From Branchiostoma floridae (Eukaryota; Chordata; Leptocardii; Amphioxiformes; Branchiostomatidae), in assembly GCF_000003815.2 (NCBI RefSeq), contig NC_049979.1:6878833-6942832 (forward strand): a stretch of 64,000 bases of DNA, read 5' to 3'. Each line of letters begins with the position of its first letter. The first letter of the stretch is position 1. The notes beneath the pieces are model-generated. The model had not been told where the DNA came from and did not search any database. It saw nothing but the letters and a program-made list of their open reading frames with translations. Positions 28,581 to 63,859 of the stretch are shown piece by piece. A program made the translations under genes and the position numbers.

Positions 28581-29751
28581 AATAAATACAAAACAAGAAT
28601 GTCTACAGTGGACACTTTAAGACCAAAACACCAAGGAATTGTGGTTAAGGCACCTGAAAATGGCTTGCATTAGATGTCACACTTAACATGCGTCACAAAA
28701 TAAAACCATTGACAGGGATGTAGCCATTGATGTGACTAATTTTTTTTCACGTCTTATAAAAGTACTGTCTTGAATAAAATTTGCTGTTAAAACTACCCCA
28801 GGTAACTCTGTTCTACATGCCAAGATCAACATTGGCATTTGTGTCATCAATATTTATCAAACTTGTCCATTCTGTCTGTGCTGTTCTGTTCAGAAACCTG
28901 GTGGTGTGAGTGTAGAAACAAGGAGTGGTGTGTGTGTGTGTGTGCAAAATAGATGATTGTCATACTGCATCACAACATGTGATACTTCACTGTGATCAAG
29001 ATTTATCCATGTACTGTTTGTAATCAACCAATAGTCAATCTTAATTACTGTTCCAAGCCTTGTTTGGTAATTTGATTGTAATGTGCCGAAAAGCTACACA
29101 GGAAGTATTCTTTGAATGATTGGATGTTAGTTGTTATGTTGTACCCAAAATAGTATTTATTAGTACATGTACTGAATATGTAGGACAAGAAATCAGAGTG
29201 TCCCATTTGAATAAACAAATTTTTTGTGCCCCTTTCTTTGACTGTTCTGTCTGTGCAGTAGAAAGCATACAAGTATGCAGAAAGTGGATCCATTATTTTT
29301 GAGTGTAACTGCTTTCATGTCTAAACCTAAAACACAACTGCAGTTACTTGAAAGCTGCTAGTGGGACAAATTGCCTCAAAAATCCTGACAAAAAGGTGTA
29401 AAAAAGAACACAAAAGACACAACTTGAGTTCTGTTGTTATTCCAAAAGAGAAGCAGGGGGTGGGGGGAATCAAACTTGCCCCGTTTTGTGGTCATCCAAA
29501 ATCAACATTGTAATTCCAAATATCTCGCCATTGACAAATTCTGGAGTCACAAGTGTTCAGTTTAGACGCAAAACATTGAAGGAGATAGTAAGGCATCAGT
29601 GATCTCAAAGATGACGTTGGGGTGTTCCGTTTACTGCTACGTTTTTGTGGCACACAACCGCCCTAACATCTGCTTGAAGATCATAGCACAGTGATCTGGG
29701 AAGGAGAGTAGTGCGTCACGTGACTCAGCCTGGGTTCGAGATTGACCTGTG
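28581..29751. other. KAT5 3' UTR/downstream region and spastin upstream region
   Basis: AATAAA at 28581-28586 directly abuts the KAT5 TAG stop. A further AATAAA lies near 28773, and a TG microsatellite near 28929-28944. No gene was seen before the spastin 5' end. Confidence 0.55.
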
Positions 29752-29762
29752 ATGGCGGCTGG

Positions 29763-46050
<16,288 letters not shown>

Positions 46051-53134: not shown

Positions 53135-56100
53135 ATGGCGTCGTGTCGTGAGAGACGGCGAGACTCCGACACCAGCCTGCTGCTGGAGGACGAGGAGGAC
53201 AGGGAGGAGGACACCGAGGACGAGGACCATATAGAGTAATTCACTTTGGTTTAACGTTGTATCTTCATTGGTGTCGAGTGCTGCTATAACATTCAGGCCA
53301 AAGATGTTGACAGCATGTTTCTGTCAATAAGAATGCTTTGGCGCCATTGACAAGATGCTTCTGACTTCCTATCAATATTTGGGGGGATGGGGGGGGGNNN
53401 NNNNNNNNNNNNNNNNNNNNNNNNNNNNNNNNNNNNNNNNNNNNNNNNNNNNNNNNNNNNNNNNNNNNNNNNNNNNNNNNNNNNNNNNNNNNNNNNNATT
53501 GATCTAAACTTTAATGGCCATTAATCATGTTAACTTCTGTACCGTTTAAGTCTTTAAATAATCCTCACGTGTACCTGCCCATTGCACATCTTTTACACAT
53601 CAGAATCTAATTTCGCCAGGTTTTGCATTGCTTACAGACCTCAGAAAGAGACAATGACTGCAAAGCCAGGTAACATGGGACCCAACATGCAAAATAACTC
53701 TGCAAGGAGGTATGCCGTATCAGTCTAGACAGGAAGTAAAACTGCCAATTGAGTGATTTACATAATTCTGATCATGGAATCAAATCACTGAAGCTGGACA
53801 TGATTTGACTATGATCATTGCTTTCACAGATCTGCATTATCACATCATCAGTACAAACATAAATGTATTGATATTTGACTTTAAGAGTATATACTAGTAA
53901 ACTGTGACAGTGTGTATTGTAAGATGTTTTGTTTAAAAAGTGTTGTGTAAAGAATAAATCATTGATCTGAGACTGTGAGAGTATTTGAGCCTATACCTAC
54001 CCCTCAATTACTTATTACCTACCTACCCCTCAATTGATAGATTAATTTTGACAAAGGTTTTTTAAAAATGAATCAAACTTCTTGGCCAAATTTGGATCAA
54101 ATGAAACTATCTATTTTTCTGAACAAGTCATCCCTCCAACAAACCTTCTCATTAAACATTTGGGTACTTGAAGGGATGCTTAGAAGCGTACCTACTGTAG
54201 TTGATTTGTAACCCCATTGATGATTATTGTCCTTGTATCACGACTGTTTCAGGAAAGCTGCTCTCAACATCCTTTTCTGCAAACGTTTCTGGCATCTTCT
54301 GAAGGTCATCTTCCCAAAACTCATTTCACCAACATTTCTCATGTTCTGCACACTTCTGGCTGTTTGTCTGCTGGGTGAGTAAAATTCATTTCATTTCATA
54401 AAAACTCTGACATTGAGAGTTAGAAGGCCTTTGGCTAACAAATACTTATTCTCTACCAGACTCCTGCCCGGCCAAATAGTAATAGTTTGGAATAAAAGCC
54501 TTGTAGGATTTGATTGGCCTAGGAGTAAACTGGCCAGCTGGATAGACTGCAAAAGACTGACTGAAATCCCATGGCATCTTACTATTCTTAGCTTCCATAT
54601 TTGGCCAAGTTCTTCTCTTTTTTCATCCAGTGGACATGTCTGCTTGGTGATGAACAAATACCTTATAAAGTTATATCCAAGTAGTTGTTGAATTTGGCTG
54701 TACTGGAGTCATGATTTTTTGATAAGAATAGAAAGATCACCTCAGTGTGACTGAATGATTATCAAACTTACAATTGACTTATTACCTACATCATAATGTA
54801 ACAATTGCATTATATAGTTAGGCATCTCAGTCTTGTCTGTGTTTCCAGAACAAGTTGTGATTTACCAGACGGGCCTCATCCCCAGCCAGTTTGTGAGGAT
54901 CCTGGCTGCAGAGAATCCCCAGAAGTCTGAGTTCATGACCAGACTCTGGCTGTCTCTCATCATTATTGGGCTCAACTCAACAGTAAGAAGGTTTACCTTT
55001 GGAAAACCAGGAAAGATATTAAGTGTTTCTTGCATGATTTGTGTCAATACCTTTGAAAATGTGACTTTGATTTCAAACTATAGAGGATTGAATCTAAATT
55101 TGTTGCCAATGTTTCTTTTCAATGTGTTTCTTGGGTGATTTGAGTTATTACCTCTGAAAATGTGACTTTGATTTCAAACTATAGAGGATTGAATCTAAAT
55201 TTGTTGCCAATGTTTCTTTTCAATGTGTTTCTTGCGTGATTTGAGTTAATACCTCTGAAAATGTGACTTTAATTCTAAATTATAGAGGATTGAATCTGCA
55301 ATTGTTGCCAATGTTTCTTTTCAATGTGTTTCTTGCATGATTTGAGTTAATACCTCTGAAAAGGTGACTTTAATTTTAAACTATATAGGATTGAATCTAA
55401 GTTTGATGCCAATGTTTCTTTCCAGCTGAAAAGCCTGGATGGTTACATCAGCAGCCTGATGTATGTGCGATGGCGCCGGCTGATCTGCCACAGACTCCAT
55501 CAGAAGTACTTCCAAGACACTGTGTACTACCAGCTCAACGTGCTGCAGGAGAACATGGACAATCCGTACGGACCTGTTCATATTGACTCACTTACAGTCA
55601 CTCTGATGTGGTTGCACAACTTACTGCAAATCTTACGATGTTTGCAGTGGTTTAATAATCTCTGTAGAAGTAGTTTCTGTAACCTCTGAACCACATTTGA
55701 CAGTTTCCAATGTATTACTACTGGATCACAGAATTGTTTCAAGTGTGAATTAGAACACCGTGAAAAGCTTGTATTAAATTTTCCTCTTTAGTACCACAAA
55801 ATAAAACCACCACAAAAGTAACTTCAGTTACACCACCTTTTATAACAACAGTCTATTTGGGGAGTTGTGAGTGATGGTAAGTGGCATTTATTTGACTTAC
55901 CATTTATCACTGTTACTTAAAATGTTTCCTTTTTTCTTTCTGTACAGGGACCAAAGAATCAGCCAAGATGTGGAGAGGTTCTGTAAGCAGTTCAGTCTGA
56001 TGATAGCTGTGATCATCATCTCTCCCTTTACCATAGGATACTACACATATCAGTGTTATATTAGGTCAGTGTTTAGCATCAAGCCTATGTCTAAGGCAGT

Positions 56101-59100
56101 ACCTTTGATAGGCTGCAAATTGGCTTGAATAAAGTATCCAACTATCCCAATCTTTTATACATCAGTACCTGTATATTTTGCAGTCTAAATTTTTATTTTG
56201 ATGAATGTACAAGGTATTCACTGTATTGTCTGATAATGGCATGCAAATCATTTCATCTACAATGTTGCCTAATCTATTTTGACATCGAAAATTAGATTGT
56301 GGATCTTGTCAAGTGGAAGATTGCCCCAAGGTCCAATAGTCACCTGACTACATTCAGCTACGTGTGTCTGTGTGTTAGCATATGGCGAAGACAACTACAT
56401 ATACCAGAATGTTAAAAGATTGAAAATGTTTTCTAACTTAACACATGAACATGCATGCCCATTTGTTTGAACCTGTGTCTTACATGTGCTGATGTTACTG
56501 TTCTGTTGTATCTGTGTTTCAGTACCGGATGGCAGGGTCCTGTCAGCATCTTTGTGTACTTTGTGACAGGTACAATCATCAACAGGTTCATCATGTCCCC
56601 CATAGTGAGCCTCCTGGTCAGACAAGAAAAGCTGGAAGGAGACTTTAGGTACTGTGTGTCAGTTTTATGTAGAAATGGTGATTAACATCTATTGAGCAAT
56701 CTTGAATCTAACACTTTTTTATTCAGTGTGAAATGAATGTTTGAAAGCATGGTCAAACCTCACAGGGCTTTCCAGGATTAATTTTTGCCAATGTCAAAGC
56801 CATCTAGGTGTCCATTTTGAAAGTAACGTACTTCTAAACCTTTTTCCATCTTTTCTCCAGGTTCAAGCACATGCAGATTAGAGTTAATGCTGAATCAGCA
56901 GCATTCTACAGGTATGAATACAGACTATTTCCTTCTTGTTCAGCACACGAGGATTCACCTAACTTCTCAGGGCTCTGCTTTTGTGTAACCATTCCCCTCT
57001 GAGACAAAGAGGGGAATTCTAAGTATGTCTATATTACTGTGAAGAAAGAAAGAAAGAAAGAACAGAGTTAGCGGTGTTGCTGATCTGCCCTCTCTGCTGC
57101 TGTTCCTGTAGAGCCTGCCAGGTGGAGCTGATGAAGACCAACTTCAGGCTCCACTCCTTACTGGACACACAGAAACGGCTCATAAACAGGGAGTTCTGGC
57201 TCAATTGTAAGTTTTCTGCTTAACTTCTCAAACTTGAATTCAGTTAGATCAATAGCTTGTAAGTTCTGGCAGTTCTTAACACCAAATTGTATAAAGCGGG
57301 GTCATACTACATCACTGACGAAAGACACCGGATGGCTGTCTGAAATGTTTGACCATTTCCAAAATCATATCCTTCATCGACATATTCAGGGTCATACTAG
57401 TTGCTATTTGTGACAATGACTAAAGATAGTGGACCGTTTCGAAAATCATATACAGTTGCTTGAGTAACTGCTTTTTGGCATATCTTATTACCTTAATATC
57501 TAATCTGCCTCGACCAATGGTAAATGATGAATTTGTTGTCATAAAGATCATTTTTGCATGGTATTTGCGCAGCCAGGTTAAGCACATAGAAATTGAGTCT
57601 TGTATTCTAAGTCATTAACTTAGTTGAAAATATGATATCTTGAGTTGTAAAATACCTAACTGTTTCTCTTGTGTGTGCACAGTTGCAGTGAACATGTTTG
57701 ACTATCTGGGAAGTATCCTGAGCTACATCGTCATTGCCATCCCTATCCTGAGTGGTGCCTACAGCCACATGGCACCAAATGAAATAAGTGCACTTGTCAG
57801 CAAGGTATGGATAGATTCATACCATTCACTAGAGAAGAAACTTTTCTAACTGAGCTTACTGTGTGCCTATGTGATTGAATTGATAGTTGAGCAAGAACTG
57901 CATTTTGATATTTAATATTGTATATCTAAATAGCCATGCAGAATTGGAGATCCTGTCCTTTAAACTTTAGACTACTGATCCAGCTTCCAAAGGGGAAGTC
58001 CACTTAGATCAACAGGACTCCTCTAACATTTGATCTAACAGCTGATGCACATGTTCCTGTGCCCTCAGAATGCCTTTGTGTCCATCTACCTGATTGGGTG
58101 CTTCAGCGGGCTGATAGACCTGTCTACCAAACTCACTGACCTGGCAGGCTACACACACAGGTAGGGTATGGTCTTGTGTTCTTGGTCCTCTTAATGTTTG
58201 AGCTAGACACCAACTGCAGGAATGCTGAGAATAACACTAGAGGTAGAAGGTCTTTGTAATCATGCAGATCTGTGACCACTTGAATTTAAGTCAGTCACTT
58301 TACCTTGATCGTCAAGAGCTTATAAGAATAAAAATGTTAGTAACAGGTACTGTCCATGGTACTGAAACATCGCTATTTGAAGTGTTGAGTATGCCCTAAA
58401 CAAGTGCCTGGAAAGCAGGAAATGTTATTTTGATCTACTGAGTGATTAGTGTATAAGCCTGACAGTACTATGCAGCCCTTTTTTGGTTAATCGTTGTAAA
58501 CCCCTCCCCCTGACAGGATTGGAGAGCTCCTCGAGTCTCTGGAGAAGACAGAAAAGGGGACAATGGAGGAACAGACCAACCACAGTGCAGACCCTGGGGA
58601 CGGCGATCCATCTGAAAATGCAAGGTATACACAAAACTTGTGCTTCTTTCGTAAATACATGCAGTATACAGTATCTCTTGCTGCAAGAAGCATAAAAATT
58701 AAGAAAATAACATATTATGTTGCAATTTTAAACTTAGCATCCATACACAAAATAAAGCACTTACCAACAAACTTTCAATCAGTCCTCTGATAACTTGAAT
58801 AAGGATCAGAGGACTGATCGAAAGCTTGTTGGTAAGCGCTTTGTTTTGTGTACAGATGTAAAGTTTAAAATTGCAACATGATGTTGATTACCATCTCCAC
58901 ATCTCCAACAAAGAACTTTATGGTCCCCTGCCGCAAGTATTGGCTGTTGTCCGCAGCCGAAGATTGCATCTGGCAGGACACGTGGTGCGCCATGAGGAAA
59001 TGGCAGGACAGGTCTTGCTCTGGGAGCCAAACGAGCCGCGCAGGCGTGGCCGCCCTTCGGTCACACTCAGGAAGCTGATGCTCGAGGAAACAGGTCTGGA

Positions 59101-62100
59101 GGCCAACGAACTCCGATCAGTAATGCTGGACAGAAACGAGTGGAGACACTGGTGTCACCTCCCAAAAGAGGATGATCTGAACTGAACGGAACAGATTACC
59201 ATCACAGATATGAACATATTGTACCGATCAAAAAGACATCATCCCCTTCCTCCCTCTACATATATTAGCATCTATTGCCGAAACAGTCTTTGAAAATTAT
59301 TAATCTGTATGTCTGTGAAATGAACTTTTGTTTCTATTTTTCTTGTCAGCCTTTGCAGCAATGAGAGCACACAGAGTAACAAGGCCTTCCAGCTGGAGTC
59401 AGTCACTCTCACACCGCCTTCACTACAGAACAGGGTCCTCATCAGGGGTAAGTCTGTCCTTCTCACACCACCTTCCCTACAGAACAGGGTTCTCATCAGG
59501 GGTAAGTCTGTCACACTCACACCACCCTCACTACAGAACAGGGTCCTCATCAGGGGTAAGTCTGTCACACTCACACCACCTTCACTACAGAACAGGGTCC
59601 TCATCAGGGGTAAGTCTATCACACTCACACCGCCTTCCCTACAGAACAGGGTTCTCATCAGGGGTAAGTCTGTCACACTCACACCACCTTCACTACAGAA
59701 CAGGGTCCTCTTCAGGGGTAAGTCTGCCCCACTCACACCACCTTCCCTACAGAACAGGGTTCTCATCAGGGGTAAGTCTGTCACACTCACACCACCTTCA
59801 CTACAGAACAGGGTTCTCATCAGGGGTAAGTCTGTCACACTCACACCACCTTCACTACAGAACAGGGTCCTCATCAGGGGTAAGTCTGCCCCACTCACAC
59901 CACCTTCCCTACAGAACAGGGTTCTCATCAGGGGTAAGTCTGTCACACTCACACCACCTTCACTACAGAACAGGGTTCTCATCAGGGGTAAGTCTGTCAC
60001 ACTCACACCACCCTCACTACAGAACAGGGTTCTCATCAGGGGTAAGTCTGTCACACTCACACCACCTTCCCTACAGAACAGGGTCCTCATCAGGGGTAAG
60101 TCTGCCCCACTCACACCACCTTCCCTACAGAACAGGGTTCTCATCAGGGGTAAGTCTGTCACACTCACACCACCTTCACTACAGAACAGGGTTCTCATCA
60201 GGGGTAAGTCTGTCACACTCACACCACCCTCACTACAGAACAGGGTTCTCATCAGGGGTAAGTCTGTCACACTCACACCACCTTCCCTACAGAACAGGGT
60301 CCTCATCAGGGGTAAGTCTGTCCCACTCACACCACCTTCACTACAGAACAGGGTCCTCATCAGGGGTAAGTCTGAACAACATTGTCATTTGTGGTCAGCA
60401 TGTACAGGGCATTCATCTGGTGTCTGGAGAAACTCTGAATAACAGTTTTTCATATTCAAGAGTAAGTGTTCAGAATAGTGCATTTAGTATTCTCAATTAT
60501 TTACAAGTTGCAGTGATGTAAATGTACAAGGGTGCAAAGGATGGCTCACATGTTTTTGTATCTTCAGATCTTAACCTTGAGATTGAGGCTGGAAGAAATT
60601 TACTTATAGTGGGAAATACAGGTGAGAACAACTCTATTCAACCTATTGTTCAGATTACTGAGTCAATGATAAATGCCAGTACTATACTGAATTATATATC
60701 TTAAATTTCTGCTGTATTTGTTGGACTCCAGAAGGTGGTACGATTGAAAATCGTCAGCGGTTCACCTGAACATTTATCATAGTCAATGGGGCTTGGTAAG
60801 CGGTGAACATTGACTGATACCTAAAATTGCACACTGGCATATAACAGACAACAATGCCATTTAGAGCTCACAGACTTGTCAGCCAATCAATTTTCATTAT
60901 GTGTGACAGGGGCTTAAGGATGTGAAGTCATATGTAATTGATTTGGCCAGGTAATGACTTGACTATTTACATGTATCTAACACACCTGAGTATATGTACA
61001 ATATTTGATATTTGAATATTTTTAATGTTTCCTAAAACAGGCTCTGGCAAAAGTTCCTTACTGAGGGTTTTGAGAGGACTGTGGCCAACCTTAGGAGGTA
61101 TGTAAATTTTGTTGTAGTCTCATGGGTTGCAAATGAAAGGTCCTGTTGAGATTCCATTCAGTTTTCTTGACACCGAACTGTAATGACTCTAACACCAATA
61201 AATACTTACTTTGTGCAACCTCCTTGCTTTGTGCATAGTAGTTATGGTCAAAGTGTTACTGTACTGGTAAGACAGACAAAGACAAGGTGTTCTGATGTTA
61301 CCTGATCTTGGGATTGGACTTCATCTTAAGCATCTACATCAACATGGTTTGTATTGTCCACAAGAGGAAATGATGTTAGTAATTGTTTTTAGTGCTGTTT
61401 CCATCATATTTTCTCTTTGTTGACTCTTTTCCTTGTTCCAACAGGCAGTGTAGAAAGGATCAGCCCACTGGGTCCACAGGGGGTGATGTTTATACCACAA
61501 AAACCCTACCTGACTGACGGGTCACTCAGGGAACAGGTAAATACAACTCCTGCTTGTTGTCAATATTCCACTTTTCAGCCAGTAGTTGTTTTGAATATAC
61601 TAGTAAATGAAGCACTTGATGTTCACAGCTGTCTTCTTAACTTTGCAGATCATATATCCACTTAAAGATAAATACCCAGGTCAAGGTGAGTCTCTCTTTA
61701 GCTAAATCACTCCCAGTACAACCTAAACTGGCTTGTGTGTTTTGTATGTCGTAGTGATTACAAAAGAACCACAGAAAGGATAAGTCCTTTACTGTTGACT
61801 GTAAGGGAGAAAATCTAGGCTATATATGCTGTACATGTGTCTGGCCACTTTTTCTACAGATGTTACAGATACACGCACATGAAACTTATGATGCAAGAAG
61901 ATAGTACTAGTATGTCATTGTGACAGATAACAGATTGAATGGCATCTTATAACCCCACCTACCAGCAAAATGTATTACTGGTGGAAGGGAAAGATGAACA
62001 GGAGAGTACTACAATACTGTTGTATTTGCCTTTCAGTTTCCCCTGATGATGGGATAATCATGCAATATTTGGAAAGGCTAGAACTGGTAAGATTGCAAAC

Positions 62101-63859
62101 CTTTGTCTTCTTTTTTTGTCTGTTCTTGATTTGTTTAAGATATAACATTGAACTGCCCTGTATCTTGTGGCACCTTACATACCATAAACATGTCTTAATT
62201 AAGATGTGTATTCCTGACAATGTTAGTTAGCTGCTTGTACCACTTGTCTAGTAAACCTAATGGGTAAACATGAACACAGAAATATTGGTGATATGTGTTA
62301 TCTGACTTTGTCCCATCCAGATGTCAGTTTTTGAGCGGGCCAAAGGACTGGATGGTGGCACGGAGTGGATAAACTGGTGAGACAATTGTACTTTATACGC
62401 TGCCATCACATCTCTGTGCCATACAAGGTTTTCTAGTTCTGCTCTACTTTGGCCGACAGGCTGAATAAAAGTTCAAAACTTGAACTATGTGGCTCCAGAT
62501 GTATTTCTGAGGGACGGCTGCAGTGTGCAAGATGTCAGTAGTTTGAGGAATGAATCTACTCTACTATATAAGGTTTTTAGTTCTGCTCATTTGATGTTCT
62601 CCTTCTCCCTGTTACTTAACCCCATAACCAGTAGAGAACTGGTAACCAAATGCCTGCTTCAGTTTGCTTAAGGTTAAAAAGGCCTTGCTTAACCAGGTTA
62701 TGCTGATGTATGTAGATTTAGGTGTTAGAATGGCCTTAGCCTAACTAGATCTGAGATTTTATGATAAATGATTCAGATCCTCACATCACATGTTGCTGTG
62801 AAAGCATTTACATGTACTTTTTCAGTGTCTTTATTTAGGTAGGAGAGAAAGGAACCTTTTGCAGGTCTGCTGTATGAACAATTCAGTAGAGCAGTTTGAT
62901 TACAGAACACATCTTTGTGGGGTTATGGTTAAGTTAGAGATCACCACGAAAACTGCAAAAATAAACTTAAAAGATTTACAGTCATTCTTTTTACTAGGGT
63001 GATTGGAAAGGTTAATAGCTCCTATAAAAAGTATAAACCCCAGAGTGTGTGTACAAAATGGTCTACGGTATGGGTGTTTGCTTGACAGTTAGTTAACCTG
63101 ATTTATAATCAATGGTTTCTTCCGTTCCAGGTACGATGTGCTATCCCCAGGGGAGATGCAGAGGCTATCCTTTGCCAGACTCTTCTTCCACCAGCCTCAG
63201 TTTGCAGGTATCAGCTTGCTGTTCTGCATTCTTATAGATGTGAAATGTATTATAATTTATAGGCACTTATTATAAATGTCATGAATCCCAAAGATAAGCA
63301 TTTCAAACCAATACATGTGTTTGTTATCATGGAAGCTCATCAATCATACTACAATGCTTAACTTTCTTCCAACACAAAGGTATACACAGATCAAATTTTC
63401 AACGACCACTGTCGCCTTCTTCAGGATCAATACTGATGAGCAATCACTTCAGAATGTAAACTCGCGAGAGTAACGGACACGTGATCTTGCAGATAGAGCA
63501 ATTGGTCGAAAGTGCCAGGAAGCCCACTGTCTCTGATCAGTGATGGCTGGCTACTGGAGTGTCATGGAGAGAACATGTGTTTTTGTGAAGTTAATGACTT
63601 AAACTTACCTTAGTGTTGAATGTCTGTGGTACATGAAATCATAGCAGCATACATTTAAAATATTGTTTATACAGAGGACATGACAATAAGGTTATGATTT
63701 GAGACTGTTTTCTGGCATGAACATTCACTTCTCTCACCAACAGTACTAGATGAGGCCACCAGTGCTGTCAGTATGGAGACAGAGGAACTTCTGTACAACA
63801 TGTGTAAGGACATGGGGATGACTGTTATCAGTGTAGGGCACAGGAGTAGCCTCAGAAAG
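53135..63859 (+). CDS. ABCD4: ABCD4, lysosomal cobalamin ABC half-transporter, 21 exons (3' end beyond window)
   Basis: Exons: 53135-53235, 53638-53709, 54253-54374, 54849-54982, 55426-55565, 55948-56064, 56523-56648, 56861-56911, 57112-57206, 57683-57804, 58069-58160, 58517-58624, 59350-59447, 60568-60621, 61041-61097, 61445-61536, 61649-61685, 62037-62086, 62321-62376, 63131-63207, 63744-63859. The phases close and give 639 aa so far. ABCD4 works with LMBRD1 to export vitamin B12 from lysosomes. An acidic N-terminal extension precedes the TMD ([75 protein letters not shown]). The NBD has Walker A GNTGSGKSS, Q-loop [14 protein letters not shown], degenerate signature [15 protein letters not shown], Walker [10 protein letters not shown] and the switch His in VGHR. 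The assembly gap lies in intron 1. The exon 13 donor is the first of 18 identical donors in a tandem array, so the true exon 13 end is uncertain. Confidence 0.95.
53398..53497. other. Assembly gap (100 N)
   Basis: Exactly 100 N follow a G-rich run (53381-53397), so the size is probably a placeholder. It lies inside ABCD4 intron 1. The flanking exons join in phase, so a missing exon is not required. Confidence 0.98.
55020..55425. repeat. 101-bp tandem repeat running into the ABCD4 exon 5 acceptor
   Basis: The marker 'tttcttg' recurs at 55026, 55127, 55228 and 55329 (exactly 101 bp apart). The last, partial unit ends in 'ccaatgtttctttccag', the splice acceptor itself. In the other units the same place reads 'ccaatgtttcttttcaatg', which keeps the pyrimidine tract but has no AG. 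The array fills nearly all of intron 4. Confidence 0.9.
57300..57485. repeat. Dispersed repeat shared with KAT5 intron 12
   Basis: Contains 'taaagatagtgga', 'aaaatcatatacagttgctt' and 'gagtaactgctttttggc', related to 27598-27715. An internal duplication is also visible ('ggtcatacta' twice). The family is unknown. Confidence 0.5.
58717..58882. repeat. Near-perfect ~74-bp inverted repeat with 15-base loop
   Basis: The left arm 58717-58790 ('gttgcaattttaaactt' ... 'caatcagtcctctga') and right arm 58806-58882 ('tcagaggactgatcg' ... 'aagtttaaaattgcaac') match with only a handful of mismatches. The repeat lies in ABCD4 intron 12 and abuts the LINE fragment that starts right after it. Confidence 0.9.
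58883..59185 (+). pseudogene. Non-LTR retrotransposon polymerase C-terminal fragment
   Basis: A plus-strand open frame ending at TGA 59185 encodes [20 protein letters not shown], then [10 protein letters not shown], then [20 protein letters not shown] and a LDRNEWRHW ending. The 'N.ELYG.LP.V...RRL.LAGH..R' and 'WEP....RGRP' blocks are characteristic of the region after the reverse-transcriptase domain of LINEs. The rest of the polymerase is absent. It is an intronic 5'-truncated insertion, and the clade is not assigned. Confidence 0.75.
59448..60371 (+). repeat. Exact 54-bp x 17 tandem array duplicating ABCD4 exon 13 end plus 5' splice site
   Basis: GTAAGT donors occur at 59448 + 54n for n = 0 to 17 (last at 60366) without a single indel. 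Each unit is GTAAGTCTG, then a copy of the exon 13 tail (TCACACTCACACCACC ... CTACAGAACAGGGTCCTC), then ATCAGGG. The tail of exon 13 itself (59402-59447) is the same sequence, so the array grew from the exon-intron junction. The unit is a multiple of three and stop-free in the exon 13 frame, adding [18 protein letters not shown] per unit until a stop at 60440. The units starting at 59880-60095 are repeated base for base at 60096-60311. Confidence 0.97.

Follow-up and report, generated by a model that had tools for sequence, protein, structure and literature searches.

The window, a 64,000-nucleotide stretch of the Branchiostoma floridae genome, carries the gene for the vitamin B12 transporter ABCD4. 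Pieces of human ABCD4 align by tblastn along 54263-63859 on the plus strand, as the initial annotation had the gene (the human query matches PDB entries of ABCD4), and among the best candidates scored this is the only ABCD4 copy in the assembly. A model of 15 exons (54253-61685) with GT/AG boundaries translates into 481 amino acids without a stop when the first of the donors described below is used, and 268 of 480 residues (56%) are identical to the human protein. The modelled introns measure 112-725 nt, the array intron apart. The exon of interest, numbered 13 in the initial annotation, is the 11th of this partial model and follows a 725-nt intron. Within that intron, at 58862-59185, lies a 107-residue open frame that resembles the end of a mobile-element protein and has a sub-threshold Pfam match to DDE_5; it may account for the length of the intron. 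Elsewhere in the window, the open frame at 29724-30143 seems to resemble the N-terminal part of spastin, and an array of 151 bp x 4.0 (94% matches) occupies 39004-39611, its inner copies (TTTGGTAAGATGATATG) carrying the donor-like word GGTAAGA.

The eleventh exon, whose identity was checked against human ABCD4, runs into a 54-bp minisatellite that spans the exon-intron boundary (Table 1). Tandem Repeats Finder describes 18.1 copies with 94% matches, 0% indels and a score of 1718, and the array matches one place in the 513-Mb assembly among the best candidates scored. A direct scan finds 18 donors with the invariant word GGGTAAGTCT, their GT at 59448, 59502 and so on to 60366, and all 17 intervals are exactly 54 bp, which bears out the 17 exact units and 18 GTAAGT donors first noted. 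The commonest unit encodes 18 residues in the exon frame; 10 of its 54 positions vary, giving the residue changes V/A, T/P, T/L and I/F among units. As had also been proposed, the exon frame is open past all 18 donors (reading on from donor 1 it meets no stop before 60440, downstream of donor 18), every donor (18/18) keeps phase with the next exon, which begins at 60568, through a phase 1 junction, and the array interrupts the nucleotide-binding domain (NBD) ahead of Walker A. The choice of donor would set the exon at 98 nt (donor 1) or as much as 1,016 nt (donor 18; 98 + 17 x 54), and the array intron at 1,120 or 202 nt respectively.

Table 1. Features of the ABCD4 locus, in positions of the window
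Feature	Position	Strand	Basis
ABCD4, mapped part; start-codon exon and C-terminal exons outside the model	54253..63859	+	piecewise tblastn of human ABCD4
Second ABCD4 array (101 bp x 4.0), reaching to the splice acceptor in front of exon 55426	55023..55421	+	TRF; read by eye
Array-bearing exon, 98 nt if donor 1 is used; phase 1 at its 3' end	59350..59447	+	sequence and exon model
54-bp minisatellite, exon tail plus intron start (GTAAGTCTG)	59397..60374	+	TRF
Donor 1 (GTAAGT), probably constitutive	59448..59453	+	sequence; conserved protein length restored; usage predicted
Four-unit block, with an unchanged copy at 60095-60310	59879..60094	+	unit listing
Donor 18 (intron-proximal), would leave a 202-nt intron	60366..60371	+	coordinates
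Next exon, carrying the start of Walker A	60568..60621	+	tblastn and exon model

The order of sequence within the units points to how the array arose. Each unit starts with intron-like sequence (GGTAAGTCTG) and continues with exon-like sequence (GTCACNCTCACACC), variable sites allowed for, an order that fits a single tandem duplication between a point in the exon and a point in the intron, overlapping by one base. The founding event would have been a tandem duplication with one end inside the exon and the other just inside the intron, and its result would have been an exon tail and a donor in every copy. Later growth, several units at a time, would have come from replication slippage or unequal exchange. 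Length instability, looked at in one allele, may show itself in an unchanged duplication of a 216-bp block (units 59879-60094 and 60095-60310); when units are compared at a lag of four, 4 of 13 pairs are identical. Block identity and lag-4 pairs suggest a recent expansion by blocks.

Arrays of this kind are known in amphioxus as mirages, minisatellites that tandemly copy an exon-intron boundary, and the ABCD4 array is one of them. Mirages have been described in globins, with Adh3 and others cited (Ebner et al. 2010, PMC3087553), and in PGBD5, where repeats of 60 and 108 bp overlap exons and splice sites (PMC3902484); the initial annotation made no mention of them. The resemblance to Adh3, BflGb6, BflGb9, PGBD5 and troponin C lies in minisatellite-like copies of a boundary within an amphioxus gene, with AG/GT splice signals in many units (PMC3087553, PMC3902484), and a unit of 54 bp is within the published range (10-72 bp in Adh3, 150-160 bp in globins). 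What sets the ABCD4 array apart from published mirages is that each of its 18 donors keeps the phase and lies before any stop; the mirage accounts in the relevant parts of PMC3087553 and PMC3902484 contain no such case. A search for literature joining ABCD4 and amphioxus found none, and among the papers listed on amphioxus minisatellites, mirages and splice sites the relevant ones recognised were PMC3087553 and PMC3902484. The new element is clear: a further mirage, in ABCD4, distinctive for a frame kept at all 18 donors. ABCD4 also carries a second array upstream, in which 101-bp copies repeat a pyrimidine tract (TTTCTTTTCAAT) and the AG stands in the last copy only, an acceptor-side near-mirage.

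Adh3 data and globin RT-PCR suggest that regular splicing is undisturbed by mirages, with the reservation that duplicated splice signals could serve as cryptic sites (PMC3087553), and the Adh and TnC mirages are reported to yield no aberrant mRNAs (PMC3902484). The same type of locus is found again in the present assembly: at one of its nine globin loci, an array of 158 bp x 4.2 overlaps the globin match, and in size and composition (intron end plus exon start) it appears to fit the published BflGb6 mirage, which has units of 150-160 bp formed from the 3' end of the B12.2 intron and the 5' part of exon 2 (PMC3087553). A search for the GFP family, meant as a test of species, had no match in this genome and none in the control genomes, and so carries no information on the species.

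Donor arrays recur in this genome. Three donor-spacing patterns matched 1,548, 103 and 1,236 times, against 315, 1 and 38 in reversed controls, totals that include a dispersed ~51-bp family and satellites and are not mirage counts. The dispersed arrays, with a consensus near CAGGTAAGTAAGGTGTGTTTCC and donor-like words, account for many of the listed places and are perhaps a mobile-element minisatellite. One 7.5-kb region (L041, G000:C1:218500-226000) holds minisatellites of 47 bp x 9.0, 31 bp x 12.0, 36 bp x 14.0, 54 bp x 4.0 and 105 bp x 6.9, some with acceptor- or donor-like signals; this may be a single gene in which many exons carry mirages.

Five arrays, ABCD4 included, were compared in detail, all at exons with a protein match and picked for coding-looking units. 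The PRKDC array (PDB E 3.7e-8; Pfam DNAPKcs_CC5 1.8e-17) has 15 donors with spacings of 39, 46 and 80, of which 5 are in phase and 2 precede a stop. The FSIP1 array (Pfam 30.5 bits, cut-off 27) has 13 donors 61 bp apart, with 5 in phase and 1 before a stop. In a gene with a PLA2_B domain (Pfam 2.6e-13) the 13 donors are 54 bp apart, as in ABCD4; only 1 of 13 gives an open in-phase product, and a TGA directly follows the split codon of donor 1. With only one or two usable donors among 13-15, these three show that donor arrays need not make protein ladders. The fifth array, in a Kelch gene (Kelch_1 4.9e-8; L058, G000:C2:10582700-10585400), has at least 37 in-phase unit starts 51 bp apart, the sequence examined ending inside the array; 7 of these starts, from unit 11 onward, read GTTAGT, a word that brings TAG into the exon frame. 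In-phase donors are thus a candidate feature here as well, though one that is visibly decaying. ABCD4 alone of the five has every donor in phase and open.

Period length was considered as a sign of selection and rejected. The period is divisible by 3 in 10 of 23 regular donor arrays, with one third expected (P=0.21), so phase does not appear to be favoured. This tally was hand-picked from the first listed places among the 1,548, 103 and 1,236 matches, after the dispersed ~51-bp family, two satellite-like loci, single-place rows and one paralogue had been dropped; 5 of the 23 are shown at an exon with a protein match. The periods are dominant coordinate steps (105 also steps 107, 78 also 70, and 36 and 33 are irregular).

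Among the 18 donors, it is probable that donor 1 is used constitutively and that the array is a silent intron. Under exon definition, donor 1, which closes the ordinary exon of 98 nt, would be used nearly always, and the remaining 17 copies would be removed within the 1,120-nt intron. Across the junction the donor-1 protein, 56% identical to human ABCD4 as a whole, differs from it in length by a single residue, so that donor 1 restores the conserved protein length. In work on near-equal donor pairs, Carranza et al. 2022 (PMC9225289) linked exon definition to the upstream donor and intron definition to the downstream one, and also saw smaller exons favoured. Splicing in five of their minigenes, each with two equal, strong CAG/guaagu donors between introns of 365 nt, went to the upstream donor in every case. 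The downstream donor was preferred in ~60% of human events before donor strengths were matched. From these two-donor human data, carried over to 18 amphioxus donors, we infer that an architecture offering either a 98-nt exon preceded by a 725-nt intron or a 1,016-nt exon followed by one of 202 nt predicts donor 1. The parts of PMC8724738 and PMC5389562 that bear on the subject offered no usable data on equal donors. On grounds of donor competition, the main alternative predicted after donor 1 is donor 18, an even spread being less likely. Points that count against donor 1 are the short intron left by donor 18, the GGG/GTAAGT core here as opposed to CAG/GUAAGU in the minigenes, and the fully open, in-phase state of the array together with a synonymous share of 5/8 as against 10/33 in the other four arrays.

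One rival to constitutive use of donor 1 is the proposal made in the initial annotation, that several of the 18 donors are used and ABCD4 isoforms step by 18 residues; unit number might then also vary between alleles. Identical donor words and a frame that is open and in phase at all 18 speak for it. As evidence of coding the open frame was rejected, since three of the six frames (two plus, one minus) are open across the whole array. A shuffled 54-bp unit is stop-free in a given frame in 45% of cases, which with a one-in-three chance of a period divisible by 3 makes an in-frame, open array a chance outcome about 15% of the time; and the 17 copies are not independent because they descend from one founding unit. 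If donor 1 is used, the in-frame, stop-free state is most likely a chance property, in the main, of the founding unit.

Substitutions among the copies lean, weakly, toward the ladder. Synonymous and nonsynonymous changes in the exonic copies of ABCD4 number 5:3 (P=0.048 uncorrected, against a neutral fraction of 0.29), compared with 2:2 in FSIP1, 1:6 in PLA2_B, 3:7 in Kelch and 4:8 in PRKDC; the excess is not significant given that five arrays were tested. For the whole ABCD4 unit the share is 5/10 (P=0.12-0.18, not significant). Of the six frames of the array, the exon frame counts the most synonymous changes; restricting the test post hoc to codons 5-17 of the unit yields 4/5 (P=0.025-0.039). 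The four residue changes among units count on the other side. In the ladder's favour, AlphaFold2 folds the exon frame into a regular repeating all-beta model (pLDDT 85.6, pTM 0.78), whereas a second open frame through the array, run as a control, scores 56.2 and 0.43. The program is reported to give confident, unrealistic beta-solenoids for perfect repeats (PMC11795689), so the model shows only a strand-forming pattern in the exon frame; 'solenoid' is a reading of that pattern, and the model was set aside as weak evidence. Weak Pfam matches of the array translations fell below cut-off and were disregarded.

Taken with the competition data, in which architecture resolves equal donors to one side (PMC9225289), and with the PRKDC, FSIP1 and PLA2_B arrays, which are unable to give full ladders, a ladder at ABCD4 is unlikely. 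Of the initial interpretation, the gene, the donors with their shared phase, the frame free of stops and the position within the NBD ahead of Walker A all stand. The protein ladder is not supported, mirages being reported as splicing-neutral and the three other genes having no full ladders, and the alternative raised with it, an intronic array with one constant donor, is better supported. A broader version deserves separate statement, in which at least one of donors 2-18 is used at some stage or in some tissue, and the ATPase domain of ABCD4 carries a stack of beta units, 18 residues each, whose height depends both on the donor chosen and on a copy number that is unstable and differs between alleles; we regard such a length dial as speculative and unlikely.

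Splicing could also settle on the opposite end of the array. Intron definition of the 202-nt intron would select donor 18 and add 306 residues (17 x 18) to the mature protein, after the first strands of the NBD and ahead of Walker A. Such a mechanism is possible, given the shortness of that intron and the presence of introns of 112-264 nt in ABCD4 (4 of the 13 other modelled introns are ≤264 nt): short introns favour the intron-proximal donor (PMC9225289), and the frame is open through donor 18. The resulting exon of 1,016 nt would run counter to the preference for smaller exons in the same study, an insertion of 306 residues into the core of the NBD would be hard to square with 56% identity elsewhere, and the unchanged 216-bp block would imply a recent change of length in a conserved transporter. 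Use of the last donor is accordingly quite improbable. The array may finally be shorter or longer in reality than in the assembly. Mirage copy numbers do differ between B. floridae assemblies (2 vs 7 and 3 vs 6 units in PGBD5; PMC3902484) and between haplotypes (6 vs 3 units in BflGb6, where the draft assembly was aberrant; PMC3087553), and a 216-bp block repeated unchanged is what an artefact might look like. With units that differ at 10 of 54 sites, and further loci of the same kind in the genome, an assembly error of this sort has very little probability.

Comparable systems exist outside amphioxus. In human segmental duplications, internal tandem repeats with 30-bp units and four repeats on average alter gene structure, and those at boundaries may give rise to new introns, in most cases accompanied by alternative transcripts (PMC2812944). 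These too are minisatellites at exon-intron boundaries; they differ in lying in human paralogues, in having few units and in being supported by transcripts. The SmPoMuc mucin genes of Schistosoma mansoni combine a variable number of protein repeats with tandem genomic repeats and varied splicing (PMC2576457), and thus work as a ladder at ABCD4 would. The repeated element there is a whole 27-bp exon with flanking introns (~1 kb), in contrast with the exon tail and donor alone in ABCD4.

If the array is silent, it offers a natural test of how cells settle on one donor when 18 share the same core word, and the arrays compared with it, in PRKDC (15 donors), FSIP1 (13) and the PLA2_B-domain gene (13), suggest that the same choice is made at several amphioxus genes at least. 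The array also bears on the proposal that mirages seed new introns (PMC3087553). If further donors are used, ABCD4 would have a protein length dial built by a minisatellite.
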